Translations under genes and position numbers: made by a program | Notes under the pieces: model-generated | The model's database searches: none | The model's input: the letters and a program-made list of their open reading frames with translations, nothing else | Told to the model about the DNA's origin: nothing | Shown here: positions 13,645-27,516 of the stretch, in pieces | Layout: the number at the start of each line of letters is the position of its first letter | Numbering within the stretch: position 1 is the stretch's first letter | Source: Dyella nitratireducens | Lineage (GTDB): Bacteria; Pseudomonadota; Gammaproteobacteria; Xanthomonadales; Rhodanobacteraceae | Direction: 5' to 3' | NCBI RefSeq assembly: GCF_014642835.1 | Contig: NZ_BMJA01000003.1 | Location: 629,280 to 669,011, forward strand | DNA length: 39,732 nt

Positions 13645-15261
13645 TCACCAGATTCGAGTACCCGTGTATTGGAAAGCGCTCGCCAGGATTCCATCCTCGA
13701 CTACCAGCAACACCGTTTCCGTTCCGTGTTGGCGCTTGACGAGGTAACTGTCTGAGCCGAACTTGGTGACCCCTGTGAACGTATAGGATTCGACCGGTCC
13801 GAGCTCGGCGAGAAACTTCTCTCTTGACGCCTTGTTGTGAGTGCGTACCCAGGCCAGACCATCACTCATGCCTGCGCCGCTGTCGGGATCACTGAGGAAC
13901 AATCGCAACGCTTTCTCGCTGCCAGGAAACGGTTGCTGCGCCTTGATGCGTGCGACAAGTGCATCGCTGATCCGGTCGGCGGCGACTTTGTCGATGCGCG
14001 GCTGGTCGAAGATAACGCGCCCGTTCTGGTTGGCAACCACTCGCACGGCATGCCCATCGGCGTCCGTGATGAAGCGCACCGTGGCGTCCATGCTCTTATC
14101 CCCGGGGAACCGCATCACGCCAAGAGGGTTCGTGCCCTCCACGGCGAACCGATTCTCGCCGAGAGGAGCGATACGGAACGGCTTCGGCACGCCGATCTCC
14201 CCACTGACGCTGACGGCGAGACCGTTGCCGGCACGCGTCACGGTAATAAGCGAGATGGGGCTGAGCTGGTAATAGCCTGTGTAGTGATCAAGGGTGTCGC
14301 CACTCGGGATCATCGGAGTATGGCTGTCGCGGTGACCGATATCGGGCGGCGTTACCTGGGTCGCGAAGGCCGCCATCCCCAATGCAACGGATGCCAGCGC
14401 CGCGACCGACACACCTGCCCACTTCTTGGGCTTGCGCAGCATGTGCCTGATCCGCAGTTCCAGGAACGATGCGGAATCGGACATCGCCGGCACCACACCG
14501 ATGCGGCTCGACTGGTGCTGCCCCACGTGGATCAGCGTTTCGCAATACACATCGACATCATGCCCGCCGCGCAGGACACGGGCATCGCAGTCCACCTCGA
14601 TCGCGCGACGCAAGCGGCGGAACTGCCACCACAGCAACGGGTTCCAGGGCATCATCGTCAACAGGATCAGGGTGAGCGCGACGAGCTGTGGGTCGCGTGC
14701 ATGCAGATGCGAACGCTCATGGGCGATCGTGCATTGTTGCTGCGCCTCGCTTGCCTGCAGCAGCCACGCAGGCACGACGATGCGCGAACGTAGCAGGCCG
14801 ATGACGGCCGGCCCCGCATCGGGCGCGACCATGACATGCTCGCCACACAGGCGCCCTTCGCGCCAGCCGCGCTTGCGCCGATGCAATAGCGCGGAGCCCA
14901 AAATGAGCGTGAGCAGCATCAGCGCCGAGGCAGCCATCCAGCCACCGCGTGTCAGCGTATCGATGTCGACGGACGTCTCATACGATGGCGTATCGTCAAG
15001 ATCAAGCAGCATCGGCGGCATCGGTATCGATGTCGTGTCGCGCAAGACGATCGACGTCGACGCCGTGCTAGACGTAAAGGTGTCGGGAAGCCGTATCGAC
15101 ACGGTGGCAATCACCGTCGGCAGCACCAGCGAACCGGCCAGCGTTGCCATCCACACCCACCGCGTCGCGGCCCCGCGAACCTTCGCGGCGCGCTCGGCCG
15201 CAAGCGCCGCTGCACTCAACGTAAGCGCGACCAGCACGGCATACATCATCCAGGCCATCAT
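13645..15261 (-). CDS. M56-family (BlaR1-like) membrane metalloprotease with unusual C-terminal domain
   Basis: This is a membrane zinc protease of 538 residues. N-terminal TM helices (MYAVLVALTLSAAALAAE; WVWMATLAGSLVLPTVIATV) are followed by a further TM near GWMAASALMLLTLILGSALL. The zinc motif HERSH (HExxH, His181-His185) lies in CTIAHERSHLHARDPQ. Another TM is LALILLTMM-like, and a last one (WAGVSVAALASVALGMAAFA) comes before an extracytoplasmic C-terminus of about 220 residues. In BlaR1/MecR1 that C-terminus is a penicillin-binding sensor. Here it begins LDHYTGYYQLSPISLITVTR and looks like a DUF3471-type beta domain instead. The ATG at 15261 overlaps the blaI stop (TGATG); an in-frame GTG one codon earlier is possible. 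It probably cleaves or inactivates the repressor on sensing an unknown signal. Confidence 0.87.
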   Translation of the reverse strand: MMAWMMYAVLVALTLSAAALAAERAAKVRGAATRWVWMATLAGSLVLPTVIATVSIRLPDTFTSSTASTSIVLRDTTSIPMPPMLLDLDDTPSYETSVDIDTLTRGGWMAASALMLLTLILGSALLHRRKRGWREGRLCGEHVMVAPDAGPAVIGLLRSRIVVPAWLLQASEAQQQCTIAHERSHLHARDPQLVALTLILLTMMPWNPLLWWQFRRLRRAIEVDCDARVLRGGHDVDVYCETLIHVGQHQSSRIGVVPAMSDSASFLELRIRHMLRKPKKWAGVSVAALASVALGMAAFATQVTPPDIGHRDSHTPMIPSGDTLDHYTGYYQLSPISLITVTRAGNGLAVSVSGEIGVPKPFRIAPLGENRFAVEGTNPLGVMRFPGDKSMDATVRFITDADGHAVRVVANQNGRVIFDQPRIDKVAADRISDALVARIKAQQPFPGSEKALRLFLSDPDSGAGMSDGLAWVRTHNKASREKFLAELGPVESYTFTGVTKFGSDSYLVKRQHGTETVLLVVEDGILASAFQYTGTRIW

Positions 15262-15635
15262 CACGGCTTGCCCTTGTCGGCGCGTTCGGCCAGCAATTGA
15301 CGCATGCGGCGTATCTGCTCGGCACTGAGCTTCTGCTCCGAAACAAGGTGAGAAAAGAGCAGCTCCGCCGAGCCCTTGAACAGCTTGTCGGTCAGATGCT
15401 GCACCGCGTTCTTGCGCGCCGCCTGCTGCTTGATGCTGGCGAAGTAGCGATGGCCTCGCCCCTCTTCCTCATGCCCGACATAACCTTTGCCTTCGAGCGT
15501 GCGCAGCACGGTGAGCACCGTCGTATAGGCGAGCTCGTCGCTCAATCGCTCGCGGACTTCGGCGACCAGCGAGGGGCCGTGATCCCATAGCGCCTGCATG
15601 ACATCCGCTTCGCGATCGGTGAGCGAAATCTTCAT
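15261..15635 (-). CDS. blaI: BlaI/MecI/CopY-family repressor
   Basis: This 124-residue winged-helix repressor has the HTH in LTDREADVMQALWDHGPSLV and ELAYTTVLTVLRTLEGKGYV. The wing is EEEGRGHRYFA, and the C-terminal dimerisation and cleavage region resembles BlaI. It binds dyads of the TACTACA type in this family. Its length and its overlap with an M56 protease gene match the two-component BlaI-BlaR arrangement, where proteolysis lifts repression. Two dyads (15655-15674 and 15696-15715) lie just upstream of its start, consistent with autorepression and possibly control of the divergent TPR-sulfotransferase gene. The gene symbol is used in the family sense; no true beta-lactamase is proven here. 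Confidence 0.9.
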   Translation of the reverse strand: MKISLTDREADVMQALWDHGPSLVAEVRERLSDELAYTTVLTVLRTLEGKGYVGHEEEGRGHRYFASIKQQAARKNAVQHLTDKLFKGSAELLFSHLVSEQKLSAEQIRRMRQLLAERADKGKP

Positions 15636-17605: not shown

Positions 17606-17681
17606 CGTAGGTTGGGGTGCAAACCCCAACACCGGGATCTATAGGCGCATGGCGGTGTTGGGGTTTGCACCCCAACCTACG
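17606..17681. repeat. Perfect 29-bp inverted repeat (CGTAGGTTGGGGTGC family)
   Basis: The arms 17606-17634 and 17653-17681 pair at every position around an 18-base loop. Each arm is also self-complementary (GTTGGGGT/ACCCCAAC). The right end supplies the TAG stop of the serine hydrolase gene on the minus strand (17677-17679). A decayed copy ends the OMF gene at 155. Confidence 0.85.
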
Positions 17682-18831
17682 GCTCACGCCTATGAATTGC
17701 CTCGCCCATGGCTTTCAACGCACCCTCGGTGCCTTCGCAAGTATCGTTGGCCAGCAGCACGAAACCTTCATGCTGCTTGGGATAAAGCACCACCTGGCTG
17801 GACATGCCGAAGCTACCGCCGCCATGCCAGATGACGGGCTGGCCGTGGTCGCTGCCAAGATTCCAGGCCATGGCTTCGCCATCGTTGGCATCACCGGTCA
17901 AGACTTGATGCGATAAGCGGACAACGGCATCGCCATCATCCAGTTGCCAGCGGACATATTTCGCCATGTCGCTGGTGGAGGCATACAACCCCCATGCAGC
18001 ACCTGCATTGGGCAGATGGTACGGCGCGATGTTGCCATGGCGATCATAGCCGTTGACGAGACGCGCCTGCCCGCTGCCGTGCAGTGTGAAGCCGGTCGAG
18101 GACATACCCAGCGGCTGCGTGATGTATTCACGCAGCAACTCGTCGATCGGCTTGCCATAAACCTTTTCCAGGCCCAACCCGATCACCAGAAAACCTGCAT
18201 TGGAATAGACGAACGTTTCACCGGGAACATTGCGCAACGCTGTGTTGTGCAAGGCCGCCAGAAACTGCTCGCGACCGAAACCCTTGTTCAGCGCGAACAT
18301 GCGCGCGGTGAAATCAGGCGCGTCCTTGTGCGCAAAGATGGCATCCGTATCGGGAATGTCACGCGGCATGCCGGCGTGGTGGGTGACGAGTGTGCGCAAG
18401 GTGATCGGCTGGCCGTTCCAGGCAAGATTACTGTAATCGCCCGGCAGGTCTTTGCGAAAATCACCGTCCAGGCTCATGCGACCATCGACAACCGCTCGCG
18501 CCGCCAACGCCGCGGTAAACGTTTTGGTGACGGATGCCAGCTCGTAGATGCTCTGTGGCGTCGGCAGCTCGGCTTTGCTGCGCGAGGTGCTGCCGTAGTC
18601 GTAGAAGTAGGTGTGGCCTGCTTCCACCACCGCGATGGAAACGCCAACGTGGCAGCGATTGCGAAAGTAGTCGTTGGCGGCCTTGTCGACAGCGATATCC
18701 AGGGCCGAGCGATGCGGATTATCACTGGATGTTCCTGGCATCGCAGCGCCTATCGAACTGACGGCGCTCAAACAAAGCCATACCAGGATGCAACCCAATC
18801 GCCGTACATGCCGAGCAATCCGTCGTTGCAT
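17677..18831 (-). CDS. Secreted beta-lactamase-fold serine hydrolase
   Basis: This exported serine hydrolase of 384 residues belongs to the Beta-lactamase (class C/PBP4*-like) family. It has an Arg-rich N-terminus and signal peptide (LGCILVWLCLSAVSSIGAA). The active-site SVTK (Ser100, ASVTKTFTA), YSN (FVYSNAGF) and HGGG (VIWHGGGSFG) are present in order. It is a paralogue in fold, not a close copy, of the gene at 12316. Its start at 18831 has GAAGGAATAGGG upstream. On the same strand, 71 bases upstream, ends a 28-codon gene driven by a sigma-54-like promoter, so the two could be co-transcribed. The stop codon lies in the 17606-17681 repeat. The physiological substrate is unknown. Confidence 0.87.
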   Translation of the reverse strand: MQRRIARHVRRLGCILVWLCLSAVSSIGAAMPGTSSDNPHRSALDIAVDKAANDYFRNRCHVGVSIAVVEAGHTYFYDYGSTSRSKAELPTPQSIYELASVTKTFTAALAARAVVDGRMSLDGDFRKDLPGDYSNLAWNGQPITLRTLVTHHAGMPRDIPDTDAIFAHKDAPDFTARMFALNKGFGREQFLAALHNTALRNVPGETFVYSNAGFLVIGLGLEKVYGKPIDELLREYITQPLGMSSTGFTLHGSGQARLVNGYDRHGNIAPYHLPNAGAAWGLYASTSDMAKYVRWQLDDGDAVVRLSHQVLTGDANDGEAMAWNLGSDHGQPVIWHGGGSFGMSSQVVLYPKQHEGFVLLANDTCEGTEGALKAMGEAIHRREP

Positions 18832-18902
18832 CCCTATTCCTTCAAAAAAATATGACTATGGCTGTCGATCAAGGCAGGCAGCGAATCAAGGTCAACGATG
18901 AC

Positions 18903-18989
18903 TCATGCCAGCATGGCAGCCAGCGTCGACACGCAGATCGCAACACATGCGGCGAAGAAACTGTTGAGCATCAGGGTTTCGAGTTTCAT
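18903..18989 (-). CDS. Putative 28-residue membrane peptide, copy A
   Basis: This is a short gene, unrecognised by family. It begins MKLETLMLNSFFAA and ends STLAAMLA, with a single hydrophobic stretch (about residues 8-28) that could span the membrane. GGAGAA lies 7-12 bases upstream of the ATG. A second copy at 27255-27341 encodes the same peptide with two changes (Leu3Phe, Ala28Val). The six codon differences besides the stop include four synonymous ones (AGT/AGC, GCA/GCC, TCG/TCC, CTG/TTG), which argues for selection on the protein. A sigma-54 consensus promoter 46 bases upstream and palindromic sites further up are conserved in both copies. Possible roles include a regulatory or toxic membrane peptide, or an exported signal; nothing in the sequence decides. 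Confidence 0.7.
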   Translation of the reverse strand: MKLETLMLNSFFAACVAICVSTLAAMLA

Positions 18990-19034
18990 GGCGGTTCTCC
19001 ATTTCATGAGTGATTGAAGCTTTCGAGCTTGGTA

Positions 19035-19052
19035 TTGCAAAGCCGATGCCAA
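19035..19052 (-). promoter_or_regulatory. Sigma-54 (-24/-12) promoter of peptide gene A
   Basis: On the minus strand TTGGCATCGGCTTTGCAA matches the RpoN consensus TGGCAC-N5-TTGC with GG at -24 and GC at -12 in exact register. The expected start point near 19025 leaves a leader of about 36 bases before the ATG at 18989. The 18 bases are identical in copy B although the flanks have diverged. Confidence 0.78.
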
Positions 19053-19117
19053 CTGCGCCAATGCCTCGAAACCCGCATAACGGCGCCATTTGCGAGAGGT
19101 GACGAGATTTATCCGAG

Positions 19118-19164
19118 CTGTCCGCGGACAGTTGTCCACGCTGTCCGGACGGCGCACGGACAAC
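19118..19164. promoter_or_regulatory. Palindromic enhancer-like cluster upstream of sigma-54 promoter A
   Basis: CTGTCCGCGGACAG (19118-19131) is a perfect 14-bp palindrome. It is followed by GTTGTCC (19131-19137), GTCCGGAC (19143-19150) and CGGACAAC (19157-19164), the outer pair forming an inverted repeat around the inner one. The cluster lies about 90-140 bases upstream of the expected transcription start, the usual place for a bacterial enhancer-binding protein. The binding protein is not in the window. Confidence 0.7.
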
Positions 19165-19277
19165 GCTGTTCTTTTCCGGTGCCAAGCATTACGCGCATAC
19201 TGGAAGCGCTTCATCCGCCCGAAGCGATCAGGGGCCTCAACTCACCATGCCGGGCAACAGCCCTAAGCGAGGTTCTC

Positions 19278-20051
19278 ATGAACGCCATCACACCCTGGCT
19301 AGCCTTGTCGTTCACGCTGTTATGTGCCACCGGAATTCGGGCGGCGGATACGAGTAGCTCAACCATCGTGCGCGATTACACCGATATCGTTGCACCTGCC
19401 GATCAGCAAGCGTATGAAACCGGCATTAAAAACTTTAATGAATGCCTGCATCAACACGGCTTCAAGTACACATGGAAAGCGTGGATACACGAGACGGGAA
19501 ATACCTACGCTTATTCGTATGTCTCTGATCCGCTTTCATGGGAAAGCTTTGATGCGATGAACACGGCAGGCAAGGCCTGCGACCAGGCTCTCAGGACGGC
19601 CGTCAATCCGCATTTGAAAAGCGAGACCAGCGCGTTCTTCGAAATAAAGCCGGAATTAAGTCATATGCCTAAAGGCATGGCGCCGACGTCAGCCTTTATT
19701 GAAGTGAGATTTTTCAAACTCAAGCCCGGCCACGAAGCCGTGGAAGCTTTCAGAGATGCCGTCAAAAAAATTGCCGCGGCTGCCGAGAAGTCCAATTGGA
19801 CTGTCAACTACATGTTCGGGGAAGTTCGGGAAGGTGGTGAGGACGCGCCCGATTTCATTCTGGTCATACCTGCCAAAAGTTGGGCGGATGTCGGCAAAGA
19901 TCCCGACCCCTCCGTGTGGAAGATGGTCGAGAACGTCTACGGCAAGGACGATGCGCAAGCGATCCGTAAATCCGTCAACGACACTGTCCAGAATGAGTCG
20001 GAACACGTAGATAGTTACAGCGCCGAATTGACGTACACGGCTGCCCATTAA
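19278..20051 (+). CDS. Secreted protein of unknown function
   Basis: I do not recognise this 257-residue protein. It has a signal peptide (MNAITPWLALSFTLLCATGIRAADT) and no other membrane segment, so it is likely periplasmic or secreted. Two regions, around HGFKYTWKAWIHETGNTYAY and EVRFFKLKPGHEAVEAFRDA...NYMFGEVREGGEDAPDFILV, look like paired alpha+beta halves of a ferredoxin-like/dimeric barrel fold. That is an impression from strand-helix periodicity, not a family match. AGGTTCTC precedes the ATG. It is transcribed away from the sigma-54 peptide gene and ends at a clear intrinsic terminator, so it is probably monocistronic. Confidence 0.8.
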   Translation: MNAITPWLALSFTLLCATGIRAADTSSSTIVRDYTDIVAPADQQAYETGIKNFNECLHQHGFKYTWKAWIHETGNTYAYSYVSDPLSWESFDAMNTAGKACDQALRTAVNPHLKSETSAFFEIKPELSHMPKGMAPTSAFIEVRFFKLKPGHEAVEAFRDAVKKIAAAAEKSNWTVNYMFGEVREGGEDAPDFILVIPAKSWADVGKDPDPSVWKMVENVYGKDDAQAIRKSVNDTVQNESEHVDSYSAELTYTAAH

Positions 20052-27254: not shown

Positions 27255-27341
27255 TTATACCAACATGGCAGCCAGCGTGGACACGCAGATCGCAACACAG
27301 GCGGCGAAGAAGCTGTTGAGCATCAGGGTTTCGAATTTCAT
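27255..27341 (-). CDS. Putative 28-residue membrane peptide, copy B
   Basis: This is the second copy of the short gene at 18903. The product begins MKFETLMLNSFFAA and ends STLAAMLV, one predicted membrane-spanning stretch with two cysteines (in AACVAICVS). GGAGAA precedes the ATG with the same spacing as copy A. Unlike copy A it has no same-strand gene close downstream, because it converges on the DUF3861 gene. The peptide can therefore be expressed without a serine hydrolase partner, which makes the peptide itself the common product of the two loci. No family is recognised. Confidence 0.7.
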   Translation of the reverse strand: MKFETLMLNSFFAACVAICVSTLAAMLV

Positions 27342-27386: not shown

Positions 27387-27404
27387 TTGCAAAGCCGATG
27401 CCAA
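27387..27404 (-). promoter_or_regulatory. Sigma-54 (-24/-12) promoter of peptide gene B
   Basis: TTGGCATCGGCTTTGCAA on the minus strand is identical over 18 bases to copy A (19035-19052) and lies the same distance from its ATG. GG and GC are 12 bases apart as RpoN requires. Confidence 0.78.
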
Positions 27405-27470: not shown

Positions 27471-27516
27471 TGTCCGCGGACAGTTGTCCAGGTTGTCCGG
27501 ACGGTGGACGGACAAC
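27471..27516. promoter_or_regulatory. Palindromic enhancer-like cluster upstream of sigma-54 promoter B
   Basis: TGTCCGCGGACA (27471-27482), GTTGTCC (27483-27489), GTCCGGAC (27495-27502) and GGACAAC (27510-27516) occur in the same order and spacing as in copy A. Between this cluster and the promoter the copies are clearly less alike. Confidence 0.7.

Follow-up and report, generated by a model that had tools for sequence, protein, structure and literature searches.

Single-helix membrane peptides as a likely dispersed arm of a sigma-54 export-pump regulon in Rhodanobacteraceae

The closest described counterparts of the locus considered here are small membrane proteins that accompany a transporter or act on a sensor kinase. 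VraH of Staphylococcus aureus is presented as a transmembrane protein belonging to a two-component regulon together with the VraDE ABC transporter, and a duplicate, VraH2, is also described (PMC6291627). In E. coli, the small membrane protein AcrZ attaches to the membrane component of AcrAB-TolC and raises resistance to some substrates (PMC7267776). A third case is MgrB, described as a small membrane protein acting on the sensor kinase PhoQ (PMC12719787).

The window, that is, the whole stretch of 39,732 nucleotides of Dyella nitratireducens DNA that was analysed, holds two members of a peptide family that can be set beside these systems. As with VraH, the family peptides share regulon signals with an ABC transporter and are duplicated; VraH is encoded with its transporter (vraDEH), whereas the genes considered here are scattered and sigma-54-driven. 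The likeness to AcrZ is that of a small membrane protein tied to a tripartite pump, binding being putative and a matter of analogy for the family peptides. AcrZ is single-copy and its partner AcrB is an RND pump, whereas seven sigma-54-driven copies here would go with a MacAB-like pump; AcrZ is not known to be under sigma-54 control. MgrB is one gene in a feedback loop, in contrast to the seven dispersed peptide genes of this genome.

The peptide A gene and its control unit

Peptide A (MKLETLMLNSFFAACVAICVSTLAAMLA, 28 residues) was recognized by reading the frame and by comparison with its family. Its gene occupies 18903..18989 on the minus strand, with the ATG at 18989 and the stop codon ending at 18903, and encodes one hydrophobic helix, predicted to be a single membrane helix from a mean hydropathy of up to 2.18 over 19 residues. 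A GGAG ribosome-binding site (18997..19000, minus strand) lies 7 bases 5' of the ATG, and like sites precede the ATG in relatives. Pairwise comparison of 33 distinct short genes, 528 pairs in all, gives a mean pN of 0.145 and a mean pS of 0.555; the resulting pN/pS of 0.26 indicates purifying selection, and copies A and B differ by a pS of 0.20 and a pN of 0.03. The first-pass annotation had proposed a 28-residue helix frame with a good ribosome-binding site and had named the lack of a conserved frame in homologues as grounds for dropping it; the frame is conserved, and the selection acting on it supports translation. The best-kept residues are E4, L8, F12, C15, C19, and M26, with conservation at positions 2, 4, 8, 12, and 19 being partly by construction because the pattern used to collect the genes (K/Q/N2, E4, L8, L/F/Y12, and C/A/G19, plus a required ribosome site) set them. 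Helical periodicity is weak, with a peak at 99 degrees that was equally strong in 454 of 20,000 permutations.

A sigma-54 (-24/-12) promoter, TGGCATCGGCTTTGCA, matches TGGCAYN5TTGCW exactly at 19036..19051 on the minus strand, and transcription of copy A would be expected to start near 19025. Exact matches number two in the window, one upstream of each peptide copy, and 28 in the whole genome, where the reversed string has 5; if a single mismatch is tolerated, the window contains 7 sites, which is not clearly above chance (3.9 expected, with 7 reached in 11 of 100 shuffles). A motif search placed the promoter-proximal activator palindrome TGTCCGCGGACA at 19119..19130, and a promoter-distal activator site, TTGTCC...GTCCGGAC...GGACAA, was read by eye at 19132..19163. 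Between the activator sites and the promoter, alignment of units delineated a conserved spacer element, AAATGGC...TATGCGG(T)TTT (19069..19091, minus strand).

The same architecture was found among relatives. Among 84 genes collected by peptide similarity alone (4 of 88 were left out, being known solely from motif-fetched loci), which are related by descent and therefore not independent observations, 74 carry a -24/-12 site (TGGC-N8-[TA]GC) 50-75 bases before the ATG. The GTCCGCGGAC palindrome lies upstream in 73 of these 74, one gene having no exact palindrome, and for 67 of these genes its start is 77-79 bases upstream of the promoter. The 10 genes without a promoter of their own all lie 11-120 bases behind another peptide gene. 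An RpoN-type promoter and a palindrome at enhancer distance, first pointed out for copy A, thus recur at near-fixed spacing in relatives collected through the peptide, and comparison establishes coding frame, promoter, and palindrome alike. These grounds support the proposal that a 28-residue membrane peptide is encoded and translated here under sigma-54 and enhancer control.

Behind peptide A, a gene for a beta-lactamase-fold serine hydrolase (PF00144; 17677..18831, minus strand) starts 71 bases after the peptide stop. No terminator-like or sigma-70-like site was found within 18600-19400, and a search for a terminator between peptide A and the hydrolase likewise returned none. In 10 other loci a short peptide gene is likewise followed, in the same orientation, by a hydrolase gene whose product is 61-77% identical, and copy A is therefore probably the first cistron of a two-gene unit. 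This close and recurrent pairing is also what could be cited for regarding the short frame as a leader or RNA feature, with the downstream hydrolase or an RNA as the functional product of copy A. Such a reading is very improbable, given that purifying selection acts on the amino acids, that copy A RNA folds no better than its shuffles (z 0.26), that copy B is followed by a convergent gene, and that the peptide recurs in many contexts, the 151 neighbouring proteins at 81 loci falling into 92 clusters.

Peptide B (MKFETLMLNSFFAACVAICVSTLAAMLV, 28 residues; 27255..27341, minus strand), recovered by family search, has a promoter identical to that of copy A (27388..27403, minus strand) and the palindrome TGTCCGCGGACA at 27471..27482, located by motif search; the convergent gene downstream encodes a DUF3861 protein. 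Alignment with the copy B unit delimits the duplicated unit around copy A to 18902..19170 (minus strand), with 228 of 270 aligned columns identical. Because the identity spans everything between the distal activator site and the stop codon, both included, promoter and peptide constitute one duplicated unit. The two copies noted earlier in the window stand, although the genome total of seven peptide genes goes beyond that pair.

Several other features surround copy A. Its activator sites sit between the peptide gene and a divergent gene (19278-20048, plus strand) for a 257-aa protein with no Pfam match. A large inverted repeat with arms of ~29 bases, judged by eye, lies at 17606-17682 between a sulfotransferase gene and the hydrolase gene and adjoins CATTCCGGC-type repeats. 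An M56 (BlaR1-type) peptidase gene (13648-15264, minus strand) is located close to the hydrolase gene.

Size, spread, and length classes of the family

The seven peptide genes of the genome, most of them encoding 28 residues, are dispersed over six promoter units, two being in tandem behind one promoter. The family as a whole consists of single-helix peptides of 27-73 aa, and its 88 distinct genes fall into 35 of at most 30 codons, 24 intermediate ones of up to 55, and 29 of at least 56. The intermediate class (46-52 codons in the genes inspected) has an alanine-rich tail. In many long forms the tail is variable and terminates in a CALPPDGVVCPR-like motif, and the long forms have a C-terminal cysteine pair; the 27-28-residue forms have no sequence beyond the hydrophobic helix.

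The control regions of these classes also vary. Sites agreeing with at least 8 of 9 positions of the IHF consensus used for scoring (WATCAANNNNTTR) occur in 16 of the 23 long-form, 2 of the 22 mid-form, and 1 of the 32 short-form units, against chance expectations of 1.3, 0.25, and 1.2, respectively; an IHF site common to all units was therefore rejected, such sites being found mainly in long-form units. The spacer element of the short-peptide units contains no IHF consensus, and what these spacers keep is the AAATGGC...TATGCGGTTTT element (26 aligned at a spacing of 78).

With a single 28-aa query, matches at E<=1 were obtained in 31 of 61 genomes. They comprise all 16 genomes of the genus (the present one among them), 14 of the 21 remaining family members, and a single genome out of 24 from other families, whose match was weak (E 0.147). 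With a 25-row profile, 95 of 398 order genomes gave matches, all of them within the same family, and among 369 genomes of the class the present genome was the sole match. A scan of named sequences yielded 31 loci in Dyella, Rhodanobacter, and Frateuria, which are Rhodanobacteraceae, as well as in a few metagenome bins, one labelled Eremiobacteraeota. A 67-aa form used as query retrieved 34 proteins, the named ones being called hypothetical or uncharacterized and none having a Pfam domain. No match was found for the 28-aa and 68-aa forms among Pfam models (E<=0.001), for the 28-, 51-, and 68-aa forms among NCBIfam models (E<=0.01), or for a plasmid-borne unit in 72,556 plasmid records. The expectation that such a gene is normally missed agrees with these results: the family is real and conserved, and it is unannotated in the sources examined. 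The idea that the peptide is a piece of an FtsX permease was rejected, as hhalign probabilities with the N-terminal helices of the A- and B-type permeases were 0.4% and 2.4%.

A few loci lie at the margins of the family. In a degenerate copy in G025 (locus L032, contig C4, ~93790), the start codon is replaced by ATA and the frame extends further; its sigma-54 site is kept and the exact palindrome is absent, and, having no ATG, it was excluded from the counts. In G016 (locus L176, contig C4, ~70720), a 69-aa frame, MKTELFFLRSLLLVCATVAGLALSGMV...CP, lies behind a palindrome-promoter unit and resembles a remote relative, with K2, E4, L8, C15, and M26 kept. This candidate was also left out of the family counts, and it raises the possibility that the family may be wider than the profile indicates. 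Long- and mid-form units at L014/L053, and also at L042, L130, L173, L187, L205, and L211, are followed by related genes, suggesting descent from a single locus; by its sequence, we take the gene at L014 to encode a TrmL-like tRNA methyltransferase.

Control sites shared with an export array

The control unit is not confined to the peptides. In the 5.68-Mb genome, TGTCCGCGGACA occurs at 6 places and its reversed control at none. By itself, the 10-base core GTCCGCGGAC is no rarity, with 12 places versus 16 for the reversed control; in combination with the promoter it gives 9 hits, with 0 in the control, so the combination is beyond chance. These 9 hits represent 8 promoters, one palindrome having been counted on both strands; six of them stand before peptide units, one before a macA-macB-permease operon, and one before an FtsX-permease pair located apart from it. 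A pcm-tolC unit is also preceded by the palindrome, without a canonical -24/-12 site in this genome, and three more of the 12 GTCCGCGGAC places show no unit of the palindrome-promoter kind.

Across the family, the composite motif was present in 154 of 197 genomes and its reversed control in 15 of 197, as counted from the listing. Downstream of 30 composite-motif loci that were listed lie 8 family peptides, 7 MacA-like adaptors, 3 FtsX permeases, 2 pcm genes, and 4 other genes, with no clear frame in 6; the MacA, FtsX, and pcm labels in loci L114-L184 were assigned by eye from N-terminal sequence, with no domain search. At 16 loci (L114-L129; genus g42 and kin, one per genome), the motif is present with no peptide behind it; what follows the unit is a MacA, permease, pcm, or different gene, or a stretch lacking any clear frame. 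In six family genomes no peptide was found by either the single query or the profile. Together with the 16 loci, these genomes suggest that the regulon can exist without the peptide. When ten pump and regulator proteins were sought in 67 peptide loci (flanks of 1.5 or up to 5 kb), a single 31% ATPase match was the only result, and the peptide genes are therefore not beside the pump in those loci.

The export array ends in an NtrC-type protein (Response_reg/Sigma54_activat/HTH_8) and a HAMP/HATPase kinase. In the two stretches inspected (L070 and L052, both on contig C1 of this genome, ~914600-941600), ~15 permease-like genes, identified by their N-termini and mostly alternating in A/B order, follow one macA and one macB, and a YkuD-like gene, the NtrC-type regulator, and the kinase close the array. 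Two array permeases checked in Pfam contain FtsX and MacB_PCD, and the YkuD-like protein scores just under its cut-off. In 15 of 20 stretches with an ortholog of the regulator, macA and macB lie upstream of it, and 8 of the 15 come from three families of the order besides the present one; no macA was found within the stretch examined in the remaining 5. An exact palindrome precedes macA in 7 of the 15 (L218, L222, L225, L227, L229, L231, and L232), and most of the other macA stretches show TGTCC or GGACA half-sites by eye.

The regulator co-occurs with the peptide. It is found at 78-100% identity in 29 of 30 peptide-bearing family genomes, no close ortholog being found in the peptide-bearing G014 (86% complete). 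Of the seven family genomes in which the single query detected no peptide, six carry it at 70-72% identity; the seventh, G026, has it at 83%, with one peptide detected by profile. From its position and this co-occurrence, the array's NtrC-type regulator is likely to be the protein that binds the palindrome, an assignment that is putative. The supposition that an enhancer system is dedicated to the peptide did not hold, because the array, whose promoters carry the same palindrome-promoter unit ahead of its MacA/MacB/FtsX genes, also encodes the likely activator. The evidence instead supports the peptides being a dispersed arm of a sigma-54 export-pump regulon. With regard to co-expression, palindrome and promoter are common to peptide units and pump operons as judged from sequence alone, and comparison establishes these shared control sites. 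No literature on sigma-54 in connection with small membrane proteins, MacB/FtsX, or efflux in this group was found in open-licence PMC articles.

Since the array that shares these sites encodes a kinase-regulator pair, and the peptide is a single helix with conserved cysteines (plus the C-terminal pair of the long forms), the peptide might be a feedback regulator that binds the system kinase and turns signalling down or up, in the manner of MgrB and PhoQ. This appears improbable: seven dispersed copies per cell, together with the three length classes, exceed the needs of a simple loop, and regulator orthologs, mostly kinase-adjacent, are present in other families of the order in which the profile found no peptide.

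The pump itself recalls MacAB-TolC, darobactin-type exporters, and ADOP (TIGR03434) in having an RND_mfp-type adaptor, a DarD/MacB-like ATPase, and permeases that match the two ADOP halves. Of these, the adaptor exceeds its RND_mfp cut-off. The best hit of the ATPase is DarD, the ATPase of the darobactin exporter (252.8 bits, against a cut-off of 375), and its MacB hit likewise falls short of the curated cut-off. One A-type permease examined matches the first half of the ADOP model at 160.2 bits and one B-type permease the second half at 170.3 bits, both below the cut-off of 622.3. In contrast to ADOP, each permease half here has a gene to itself, and the two types alternate along an array that includes a single ATPase gene. 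Judged by its genes in the stretches examined, the pump is MacAB-like and combines numerous permease genes with one for the ATPase.

An exporter of this type also invites the view that the peptide is its substrate, released or processed from the membrane as a signal or antimicrobial. The shared control sites, the best score with DarD, and the variable tail of the long forms, ending as it does in a recurrent type of motif, would suit a cargo. It is precisely the hydrophobic helix that is best kept, though, and the shortest forms consist of nothing else; the low pN/pS and the varied neighbours (assessed by clustering only) also speak against export, which is accordingly rated as unlikely.

Proposed role of the peptides

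The explanation that we hold to be the most probable, with a fair margin of doubt, is that the peptide is a membrane accessory or modulator of the co-regulated exporter; it is favoured because the control sites are the same and the peptide is a single helix with no catalytic part. In the proposed mechanism, sigma-54 RNA polymerase would transcribe each peptide unit from its -24/-12 promoter upon activation from the palindrome starting ~78 bases upstream, the activator likely being the NtrC-type regulator at the end of the MacA/MacB/FtsX-permease array. The partner kinase would sense an envelope signal, such that pump subunits and peptides are made together, with the copy A unit probably adding its beta-lactamase-fold hydrolase. 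The peptide would insert as one inner-membrane helix, presumably with its N-terminus in, and its conserved face (E4, L8, F12, C15, C19, and M26) would pack against a co-regulated membrane protein, an FtsX-type permease being the likeliest, and so alter the stability, activity, or substrate range of that protein. We infer the palindrome-binding protein, the topology, and the action on the pump, the last by analogy with the systems introduced above.

Permease and peptide numbers show a modest relationship. Matches to the A-type permease, taken from at most 28 scored candidates per genome, number 1-17 in peptide-bearing and 1-7 in other family genomes. The correlation between permease and peptide copy numbers gives a rho of 0.63 over 37 family genomes, 0.41 in the 30 peptide-bearing genomes, and 0.54 over 22 genus means, in statistics that ignore descent and with peptide counts that include weak matches (E<=1). 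G003 has 2 peptides and a single A-type permease. A bolder and rather doubtful extension would regard the peptides as interchangeable one-helix subunits pairing with duplicates of the split ADOP/FtsX permeases around one ATPase and one adaptor, forming a combinatorial exporter. If this were true, different peptides would tune different permease pairs within one sigma-54 regulon, and peptides and permeases would have expanded together within one bacterial family.

What emerges is a sigma-54 export regulon in which the peptide genes form a scattered arm, rather than a private enhancer system for one peptide. A multi-copy family below the usual gene-calling size now has a promoter, an activator site, a probable activator, and, under the accessory-peptide explanation, a probable partner. 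Sigma-54 regulons would thereby widen to include scattered tiny membrane proteins, and the results suggest that small pump modulators can be found through the DNA signature of an activator instead of by protein search. For Rhodanobacteraceae, they point to a large export system whose permeases and peptides have seemingly multiplied together.
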